Source: Brachyspira pilosicoli (GTDB taxonomy: Bacteria; Spirochaetota; Brachyspiria; Brachyspirales; Brachyspiraceae). Taken from it: DNA of 64,000 nucleotides. Below are positions 8,054-16,777 of this stretch, in pieces. Within the stretch, counting starts at the first letter, position 1. The number at the start of each line of letters is the position of its first letter. The position numbers were made by a program, and so were the translations under genes. The stretch is from the NCBI RefSeq assembly GCF_008016535.1, contig NZ_SAXY01000072.1:1-64000 (forward strand), read 5' to 3'. The notes beneath the pieces are model-generated. The model was not told the DNA's origin, searched no databases, and was given only the letters and a program-made list of their open reading frames with translations.

Positions 8054-8683
8054 TTAAAAACCTAATTCTTCATTTATAAATAATATATGTATTCTGTTTT
8101 TTATATGGCATTTATTTATAATAACAGTATAAGCACATAATCTCTCTTCTATATCGCAATTCTCATTACATATCATATCACCTACACTGCAAGGATTATT
8201 TACTTTAAATCTTATAGAGTTTTGTGAAGCAGCAAAATCTTTAGCTCTCTTTAATGCATCTTGCTGAGTGTTGGCAACCTTATTTCTTCCTACAACTAAA
8301 TAAACTTTTTTTGGTCCGTAAATCATAGCAGAAACCCTATTTCCGCCTCCGTCTATAGCAATAACATCACCATTTTTACTTAAAGCATTAGCAGAACATA
8401 AATAAACATCAGCAGTAAATGCCTTAATCTCTGCATCTCTTTTTAATTCTTTGTTGTTTCTGTCTATAAAATTTTTATATCCTTTTAAATCTTCTAATAT
8501 ACCTATCTGATTAACACTAGTGCTTCCGCCGAATGTTATAACATCATCTTTTTTTATTTGACTTAGTAAAAACTTTTTAGACTCTTCTTTGTTTGCAAAA
8601 CTATCAAAAGCAAAACCTTTTTTATTAAAATTTGTTTTTAATATAGCAGATAAATTATTAAAATACTCTTCTTGAACTGTCAT
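8054..8683 (-). CDS. LUD domain protein (lactate-utilisation LutC/DUF162 type)
   Basis: The 209-residue protein carries the LUD fold signature: ITFGGSTSVNQIGILEDL near residue 50, a central DVYLCSANALSKNGDVIAIDG, and GPKKVYLVVGRNK. Family members include LutC of the lactate oxidation complex, but stand-alone copies like this one have no settled function. The C-terminal part has a cysteine cluster (NNPCSVGDMICNENCDIEERLC) that could bind metal. GGAG precedes the ATG. Its neighbours do not suggest lactate metabolism. Confidence 0.8.
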   Translation of the reverse strand: MTVQEEYFNNLSAILKTNFNKKGFAFDSFANKEESKKFLLSQIKKDDVITFGGSTSVNQIGILEDLKGYKNFIDRNNKELKRDAEIKAFTADVYLCSANALSKNGDVIAIDGGGNRVSAMIYGPKKVYLVVGRNKVANTQQDALKRAKDFAASQNSIRFKVNNPCSVGDMICNENCDIEERLCAYTVIINKCHIKNRIHILFINEELGF

Positions 8684-8779: not shown

Positions 8780-8808
8780 TTGACTTTTATAATTTTTTAT
8801 ACTATACT
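8780..8808 (+). promoter_or_regulatory. Sigma-70-type promoter of the encapsulin operon
   Basis: TTGACT at 8780-8785 and TATACT at 8803-8808 are separated by 17 bp, 70 bp upstream of the encapsulated ferritin start. An imperfect inverted repeat (TTATTA ... TAATAA) follows at about 8811-8833 and could be an operator, but no known regulator box was matched. Confidence 0.65.
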
Positions 8809-8879
8809 CATTATTAGTAATTAATATTAATAAGTAATTTATTGTATTAATATAATTAGGTATTTCAAAGGAGGAAAAT

Positions 8880-9230
8880 ATGCCTAGTTTTGCAAACCCG
8901 TTTAATGCAAATGTTGAAAGAAAAATTAGTAAAGAAGAATTGATACAGGCTGTGAGATTGGATATAGCTGGCGAATTGGAGGCTATATATTTATATGATG
9001 CTCATTGTATGGCTACAGATGACCCTGTTGCTAAGGCAGTTTTAGCTGATATTAGAGATGAAGAGAAAGCCCATGTTGGTGAACTTATGGCTCTTTTAAG
9101 ACATTTAGACCCTAAAGAGGCTGAACATTTTGCTTCTGGAGAAATGGAAGTAAAAGAGATGATGGAAGAATTGGGAATAAAAGAACCAGATTTATCAGGT
9201 CTTACAGTAGGAAGTTTGAAAAAAGAATAA
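8880..9230 (+). CDS. Encapsulated ferritin (EncFtn), encapsulin cargo
   Basis: This 116-residue ferritin-like protein oxidises and passes iron inside an encapsulin shell. The EncFtn ferroxidase ligands fall at Glu32 (AGELEAIYLY), Glu62 and His65 (DEEKAHVGEL), with Tyr39 nearby. These are the positions I recall for the Rhodospirillum rubrum protein. The C-terminus LSGLTVGSLKKE is a classic encapsulin targeting peptide. A strong AAAGGAGG ribosome binding site lies before the ATG, and the encapsulin gene follows 50 bp downstream in the same operon. EncFtn subunits form an annular decamer and need the shell for storage capacity. Confidence 0.93.
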   Translation: MPSFANPFNANVERKISKEELIQAVRLDIAGELEAIYLYDAHCMATDDPVAKAVLADIRDEEKAHVGELMALLRHLDPKEAEHFASGEMEVKEMMEELGIKEPDLSGLTVGSLKKE

Positions 9231-9280
9231 TTATTACTATAATAATATAGTATACAATAAAATTTAAAAAAGGAGAATAT

Positions 9281-10090
9281 ATGGACTTTTTAGCAAGAGA
9301 TGGTTCGCCTTTTGACAGCGACTTTTGGAGTAAAATAGATAAAACAGTAATAGAAACTGCAAGCAGAACTTTAATAGGAAGAAGATTTTTAAGTATATAT
9401 GGACCTTTAGGTTCTGGCAGTATAAGCGTGCAATATGATAGAAATGACAGAGAAGAAGTTTTTCAAGATGGTATAGTGAAAACTTCTGGAAGGCATTCTG
9501 TGGAACTTCCGCAATTATATCAAGACTTTACTCTTCTTTGGAGAGATATAGAAAATAATGAAAAAAATAAAATGCCTTTAGATTTATCTGTAACATCATT
9601 TGCAGCACAAACTCTTTCAAATAAAGAAGATGAATTAATTTTTTATGGCAATGAGTTTGTCGGAGTTACAGGAATACTGAACACTAAAGGCGTACAAAAA
9701 CTAAAAATTGGTGATTGGTCTGCTGGTGAAAACCCTTATATTGATATTGTGAAAGCTATTAATATGATTAGAGAAAAAGGAATAGTTGGAAGAATAGTAT
9801 TAGCTTTGAGTCAGGGATTATTTTTTGACTTACAGAGAATACAGCAAGGCACTGGAATGACTGAAGCTCAAAGAATAACTAATATGATTCATAATTTATT
9901 TAATATACCTACAATAAAAGGTAAGAAAGCTGCTATTATATGTGTAGAGCCTCAATATATAGATTTGGCTATTGGTGTTGATATGTCTACTGCTTATTTA
10001 GAGCAAAAAGACCTTAATCATACTTTTAGAATTATGGAAACAGTGTTGCCTAGAATTAAAGAACCTGATGCTATTGTTGTGTTAGAATGA
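9281..10090 (+). CDS. Encapsulin shell protein (family 1, linocin M18/CFP29-like)
   Basis: The 269-residue protein has the HK97-like fold of family 1 encapsulins. The typical start is ARDGSPFDSDFW followed by the N-terminal helix that forms the cargo-docking groove. Also typical are ARRFL-like GRRFLSIYGPLG, the central E-loop region, and the C-terminal strand SFRIMETVLPRI-like segment HTFRIMETVLPRIKEPDA. Length matches T=1 shells of about 24 nm. AAAAGGAG precedes the ATG. It follows its ferritin cargo gene directly. A terminator hairpin lies about 25 bp after its stop. Confidence 0.95.
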   Translation: MDFLARDGSPFDSDFWSKIDKTVIETASRTLIGRRFLSIYGPLGSGSISVQYDRNDREEVFQDGIVKTSGRHSVELPQLYQDFTLLWRDIENNEKNKMPLDLSVTSFAAQTLSNKEDELIFYGNEFVGVTGILNTKGVQKLKIGDWSAGENPYIDIVKAINMIREKGIVGRIVLALSQGLFFDLQRIQQGTGMTEAQRITNMIHNLFNIPTIKGKKAAIICVEPQYIDLAIGVDMSTAYLEQKDLNHTFRIMETVLPRIKEPDAIVVLE

Positions 10091-10115
10091 TACCCCGATA
10101 ATTTTTAAACGAAAG

Positions 10116-10154
10116 AAGCAAAAGTAAGTAATATAACTTATTTTTGCTTTTTTG
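10116..10154 (+). terminator. Rho-independent terminator of the encapsulin operon
   Basis: AAGCAAAAGTAAGT pairs with ACTTATTTTTGCTT (one G-U pair) around a short AATATA-type loop and is followed by a T-run. Confidence 0.85.
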
Positions 10155-15749: not shown

Positions 15750-16777
15750 TGTCATGGAGCCATAGATATTGTACTTTTACTTGCTATAATATTTTTGATT
15801 CTTTCTTTGATTGTAATATACAATAACGAAGAAATCAATCTTTGATTGTTATAAAAATGTGTATATTCTTTTAATTTTTCTCTTAATAATTCTACAGTTA
15901 TATTTTTATTTAATCGTGAATAAAATTCTCTTTCGTCTATACCGTGTACTCTTTCTACTACACCATTGTATCTTGGTGTTGCTATAGGAATATATCTCCT
16001 CTCTAATTTATTTTTTAAGCAGTATTCATCAAAAATATTTATTTTAGAGGTATTAATACAGCGATAAGTATATTCTATACCATTGTCTGTTTGAATACAA
16101 TGTATTCTAAAAGGAAAATAATCTATAAGCCGTTTCATAAAATCAATGGTACTGTATGGACTTTTTTCATCGTATAAATATCTAAAGCTCATTCTAGTAG
16201 CTACATCTACAGCAGTAAACTGATAATAACGTATTTCACCAAAAAAAGCATATTTGACATCTATTTGTACATTTTCTCCTGCTTCCTTGATATAAATTGC
16301 ATGTTTTCCTTTATGCTTCCTCTTAATTTTTTTTCTTTTTGCTCCTATACAAATTATGTTCTTTTAGAACAGTTTCTATTGCTGTTGTTCCTACTTTAAT
16401 GTCTTCTAACTCTAATTGTTTTTTTATTTTTAATTTACCATAACCGTATAATTTTCTTATCTCAATTATTCTTTTAATAATCTTTTTATCTTTCAATTTA
16501 TTTTTATTAGTTTTAGGTTTAGTAGATTTAGGGTTTATAATAGAACAAATTTCTAATTGTCTTTTCCAATAGTAATATGTTCTAATACTAATCTTATATT
16601 TTAAAGCTAATATTTCTTTATTCTTAACTTTATTAATTTTTATAACTATCTTTTTTCTTTGATTTGAAGTATATTCTTTCATAGGTATTCCTTTTGTTTT
16701 ATTTTAGTTAATTAAATTATAAGGAATACCTACTTTTTTAAACTAAAAAAACGTGCAATATGTATGGCTCCTAAACA
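15750..16777 (-). mobile_element. IS481/IS3-like insertion sequence, about 1.03 kb
   Basis: The ends are an imperfect inverted repeat that matches at 18 of 22 positions. The left end starts TGTCATGGAGCCATA and the right end, read inward, starts TGTTTAGGAGCCATA. The TGT...ACA ends, the length and the HTH-plus-rve layout fit IS481 or a one-frame IS3-group member. No target-site duplication is visible (AAAATTA on the left, ATACC on the right). The left end truncates a MATE gene. A second, partial copy lies at 238-872. Confidence 0.8.
15752..16682 (-). pseudogene. Transposase split by a frameshift at an A-run
   Basis: The upstream part (16323-16682) encodes 119 residues: a helix-turn-helix (residues 8-38) and an HTH_21-like region KRIIEIRKLYGYGKLKI. 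It ends at a stop within AAAAAAAATTAA. The rve catalytic part is open in the +1 frame from there to 15752. It carries Asp in QIDVKYAF, Asp in QTDNGIEY and Glu in NGVVERVHG, so all three DDE residues remain. In the copy at 238 the same junction is a single open frame. This indicates a one-base slip in the A-run here, though slippage during expression could still rescue it. Confidence 0.75.

Follow-up and report, generated by a model that had tools for sequence, protein, structure and literature searches.

The stretch of Brachyspira pilosicoli DNA that was analysed, referred to here as the window, is 64,000 nucleotides long. Two adjacent genes on its forward strand encode an encapsulated ferritin (EncFtn) and an encapsulin shell protein. 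An earlier note on this DNA had described them as a two-gene operon with a promoter ahead of it and a terminator behind it, and all three were recovered (Table 1). The operon is a complete, conventional EncFtn encapsulin of a known type. What is new here is its predicted place in a PerR-type oxidative-stress regulon and in a shell clade related to T=3 and T=4 shells.

Table 1. Features of the encapsulin locus, with positions in the window.
Feature	Positions	Strand	Basis
Promoter: -35 TTGACT, 17 nt, -10 TATACT	8780..8808	+	Consensus scan
Candidate PerR-type operator TTATTAGTAATTAATATTAATAA, imperfect inverted repeat just 3' of the -10	8811..8833	.	Conserved upstream alignment
Ribosome-binding site AAAGGAGG of the cargo gene	8867..8874	+	Read from sequence
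EncFtn/EncB-family cargo, 116 aa	8880..9230	+	ORF; NCBIfam, Pfam, and PDB matches
C-terminal targeting peptide LTVGSLKKE	9201..9227	+	Sequence; TVGSL core in homologues
Ribosome-binding site AAGGAGA of the shell gene	9270..9276	+	Read from sequence
Family 1 encapsulin shell protein, 269 aa, HK97 fold	9281..10090	+	ORF; family matches; AlphaFold
AT-rich intrinsic-terminator-like hairpin, U-rich 3' arm	~10112..10153	+	Folding

The TTGAC of the promoter is invariant among 21 aligned Brachyspiraceae upstream regions, and its surroundings barely align. The hairpin behind the shell gene folds at -22.3 kcal/mol (z = -6.77). A G+C-based consensus terminator scan found no terminator. This blank was judged a false negative because the stem is AT-rich. 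Rfam gave no match within the window. A LUD-domain gene (8054-8683, reverse strand) lies divergent to the operon. It is seemingly not conserved in the genus, since upstream DNA resembling this region was seen only in B. pilosicoli-like genomes in the upstream alignment.

The cargo protein matches the NCBIfam model EncB_fam at 2.6e-49 and the Pfam EncFtn-like model at 3.5e-7, both over the cut-off. Its predicted model is helical, with two long helices (18-45 and 49-76) and one shorter helix. Numbered from Met, Glu32, Tyr39, Glu62, and His65 are the residues of the di-iron site of Rhodospirillum rubrum EncFtn, in which these positions bind iron (PMC5012862). All four are unchanged throughout an alignment of 17 homologues. 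The ferroxidase residues that had been read from the sequence earlier, Glu32, Glu62, and His65, are in place within a protein predicted to have two long helices. The R. rubrum protein (5da5) is a weaker match to the cargo (4.6e-8), and its entry-site Glu31 is replaced by Gly31 in Brachyspira. The nearest solved cargo is Pyrococcus furiosus EncFtn (5n5e) at 2.9e-17, which is also the best PDB match of the cargo model in a fold search, with 44% identity. The P. furiosus EncFtn is fused to its shell protein (PMC8346489), whereas the Brachyspira cargo is encoded by a separate gene and carries a targeting peptide. This peptide agrees with the LTVGSLKK motif described previously, and its TVGSL core is kept in the cargo homologues whose gene adjoins a shell gene. 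A degenerate DNA pattern for TVG-S-LK had a single match in the whole genome, the cargo C terminus, and no second cargo with a motif of this type was found by that pattern.

The shell protein scores over the cut-off against Linocin_M18 (1.1e-64) and encap_f1 (4e-76). Its AlphaFold model has a pLDDT of 90.6, and the top PDB fold matches are all encapsulins. As in family 1 encapsulins, the adjacent cargo bears a C-terminal targeting peptide. The PDB was compared by means of a profile built on 28 relatives. The best matches were Myxococcus EncA (2e-86), Dendrosporobacter (4e-83), Bacillus methanolicus (2e-81), and Quasibacillus (1e-80). Scores against the Myxococcus, Quasibacillus, and Bacillus-type shells span 2e-86 to 3e-69, and most shells of this group are of size T=3 or above. 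For the T=1 shell of Thermotoga, the score is only 7e-33. The proteins group in the same way in the fold search, where the Thermotoga shell first appears at rank 30. The description of the shell in the earlier note as T=1-type does not agree with this grouping, and a Brachyspira shell of T=3 or larger appears more likely from the comparisons. A T=1 particle of 60 subunits is somewhat unlikely. It would be in keeping with the ability of a close relative, Myxococcus EncA, to form T=1 particles (7s21), and the Brachyspira shell is without about 8 loop residues that are present in several T=3/T=4 shells. Against it are the best sequence and fold matches, which all belong to the Myxococcus/Quasibacillus/Bacillus group, and the distance of the Thermotoga shell in both score and rank. 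The T number is not fixable from sequence, since the fold-search matches include EncA as T=3 and as T=1 particles, along with engineered T=4 ones.

Myxococcus xanthus EncA is the nearest shell by profile and among the nearest by fold, and its EncB and EncC cargo proteins are EncFtn-type ferroxidases like the Brachyspira cargo. Brachyspira differs in having one adjacent cargo gene, a loop of its shell is shorter by about 8 residues, and the shell identity is only about 36%. The Quasibacillus thermotolerans shell (6nj8) is likewise related, and it is a T=4 shell (PMC6668986). Its IMEF cargo belongs to a ferritin-like family other than EncFtn (PMC6668986, PMC7762939).

Presence across Brachyspira species had been proposed as a check of the system, and it was found. 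The shell is encoded in 20 of the 25 other Brachyspira genomes examined, in one copy each and at 75-99% identity. It is also present in one of three other genomes of Brachyspiraceae outside the genus. The window shell is 98% identical to that of B. pilosicoli. The cargo gene is 5' of the shell gene in every genus member with upstream DNA available, and the cargo ends in LTVGSL where it could be read. Absence of the encapsulin from five Brachyspira genomes (G008, G010, G015, G018, and G023, four of which are at least 99% complete) is a matter of loss or replacement within the genus. All five keep ferritins, and the four complete ones keep catalase.

The gene pair and targeting peptide are kept across Brachyspiraceae, Deferribacteraceae, and Clostridia. 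The nearest loci outside the family are those of gut Deferribacteraceae, with 57-58% shell identity. Next are Clostridia and a few Thermodesulfobacteriota, with 43-51%. Most of these loci share the gene pair, with cargo tails of the TVGSL type. The shells of other spirochaetes are just 21-24% identical and form a separate clade with full support. The kinship of the Brachyspira system with those of gut anaerobes suggests that it was transferred between gut lineages. A literature search for encapsulins in Brachyspira or spirochaetes found nothing pertinent. Two further observations were made among these loci. The EncFtn proteins of gut Deferribacteraceae (L063, L064, and L065; 5495-5983 in L063) contain, after the ferritin part and ahead of the LTVGSLLKK tail, a His/Cys/Asp-rich stretch of about 45 residues (for example, CDDSHGDDGHTHGDKSSCCGG) that could bind metal inside the shell. 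In one Clostridia locus, the shell gene (L086:6001-6827) is broken into two frames, perhaps through a frameshift or a sequencing error, and the EncFtn gene beside it is intact.

The upstream regions indicate how the operon may be controlled. In the 21 aligned Brachyspiraceae regions, conservation is found mainly in the TTGAC, the -10, and a near-palindrome, TTATTAGTAATTAATACTATTAA, just downstream of it. This candidate operator is 23 bp long and is kept across the genus, and its geometry resembles the 7-1-7 inverted repeat of Fur-family boxes. There are exactly three sites within one mismatch in the 2.76-Mb genome. The best is before the encapsulin operon, another is before a catalase gene, and the third is 88 bp 5' of a superoxide dismutase gene that is followed by a rubrerythrin gene. 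At one mismatch, a reversed-pattern control gave 0 sites in this genome, and 0 sites were found in six Markov genomes. For the genus as a whole (26 genomes, both strands), there are 101 one-mismatch matches and 14 for the control. Three of the 26 genomes are without any one-mismatch site, and two of these three carry the encapsulin. Since encapsulin promoters were the source of the motif, the encapsulin sites are not independent evidence.

In the relatives, the operator is before the same orthologues as in this genome. Among the fetched loci, the catalase site lies 12-14 bp before the ATG in ten other genomes, and the catalase promoter has the same layout as that of the encapsulin operon (TTGAAA or TTGCAA, 17 nt, TATAAT, operator). 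The operator was also found 88 bp before superoxide dismutase and 12 bp before a rubrerythrin gene. The superoxide dismutase site is upstream of the likely -35, unlike the start-site position seen elsewhere. In four encapsulin-free genomes (G008, G010, G015, and G018), the operator persists at catalase, and in three of these it also persists at superoxide dismutase. The operator is thus common to the catalase, superoxide dismutase-rubrerythrin, and rubrerythrin sites, as members of a PerR regulon would be expected to share it.

The conserved block might be no operator at all, only the core promoter or start-site sequence of an AT-rich genome, with the operon expressed constitutively. The genome is very AT-rich, and the wider pattern at two mismatches is no commoner than the control, being at chance level in this genome (12 and 11 sites versus 12 and 12). 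For this reason, the wider pattern was not used alone. Constitutive expression is nonetheless very improbable, given the excess of one-mismatch matches over the control in the genus and the recurrence of sites, across many species, at the same orthologues for oxidative-stress defence.

Other genes near the operator deserve mention. In several species, it is found 65-69 bp before a gene for a ZIP metal transporter and about 40 bp before a gene for an M50 (RseP-like) protease (L154:1553-2450, L156:1500-2393, and L131:172-1595). In this genome, two-mismatch sites stand before the ZIP and M50 orthologues that bear the operator in the relatives, and both genes may belong to the regulon too. The catalase gene behind the operator in this genome (L090:1501-3023, contig C70) appears broken in this draft assembly. 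Its normal start codon is lost, and after about two thirds of its length it is interrupted by an insertion-sequence transposase, whose kind is also found at 15752-16192 in the window. The catalase gene is intact in relatives.

A single Fur-family protein is encoded in the genome, at C65:52755-53102. Its nearest solved relative is Bacillus subtilis PerR (8e-22, versus 6e-15 for the best Fur), and it is identical to that protein at all five of the aligned positions H37, D85, H91, H93, and D104. These residues are the ligands of the sensing metal in PerR. Among NCBIfam models, those for PerR score highest, yet under their curated cut-offs, and the Fur models score lower still. A PerR-like sequence alone is no proof of peroxide sensing. 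As far as can be judged from the sequences, control of the encapsulin operon by PerR is the best-supported reading. In the passages of PMC7762939 that were consulted, PerR is tied to Dpr and not to encapsulins.

The encapsulin could instead be mainly an iron store, with the Fur-family protein acting as an iron-responsive Fur and not as a peroxide sensor. Because there is only one such protein, it may serve the roles of both Fur and PerR, and the Fur models do match it, albeit below those of PerR. This alternative is unlikely. The nearest solved protein is a PerR by a clear difference in score, the residue aligned with B. subtilis D104 is an Asp, and the other targets of the operator are catalase, superoxide dismutase, and rubrerythrin. 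No iron-uptake operon was found among the fetched operator sites.

Searches of the genome for the ferritin family turned up a rubrerythrin and two ferritins of the classical kind. The encapsulin as the only iron store of the cell was considered and rejected because these two ferritins exist. The idea of an iron-storage compartment for iron or oxygen pulses, put forward in the earlier note, is independently supported in its oxygen-stress part by the operator shared with catalase and superoxide dismutase. No Dps mini-ferritin was found in the genome with the ferritin family model. In Bacillota, Dps/Dpr mini-ferritins under PerR place iron sequestration under a peroxide sensor (PMC7762939). In Brachyspira, an encapsulin-EncFtn compartment would fill that place, and by this analogy it may take over the peroxide-induced, iron-removing role of Dps-type proteins. 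EncFtn proteins alone are unable to hold mineral and require a shell (PMC8346489, PMC7762939).

The locus is probably a peroxide-inducible, iron-sequestering encapsulin-EncFtn compartment under PerR-type control. EncFtn subunits would pair and so create the di-iron ferroxidase sites, probably as a ring of five dimers, and the LTVGSLKK tail would hold them on the inner wall of the shell. Fe(II) entering the shell would be oxidised by EncFtn, and the Fe(III) mineral would gather in the lumen. The PerR-type repressor, the sole Fur-family protein, would occupy the near-palindrome, which covers the start site, and leave it when peroxide oxidises the sensor. The compartment would then be made jointly with catalase, superoxide dismutase, and rubrerythrin, and it could take away Fenton-active iron during oxygen or peroxide pulses. 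The operator common to the catalase and superoxide dismutase genes suggests that the encapsulin is produced under oxidative stress. The chances are about even for a more specific proposal, that the Brachyspira encapsulin-EncFtn is a PerR-controlled, peroxide-induced substitute for Dps/MrgA, with a shell from a clade of gut anaerobes that is still uncharacterised and a particle larger than T=1.

To our knowledge, the inducers of encapsulin iron compartments are poorly known. The operator common to catalase and superoxide dismutase genes leads to a direct prediction, that anaerobic gut spirochaetes use these compartments in their defence against peroxide. The closest solved relative of the Brachyspira/Deferribacteraceae/Clostridia shell clade is about 38% identical to the window shell, and this clade could reveal how shell size is determined.
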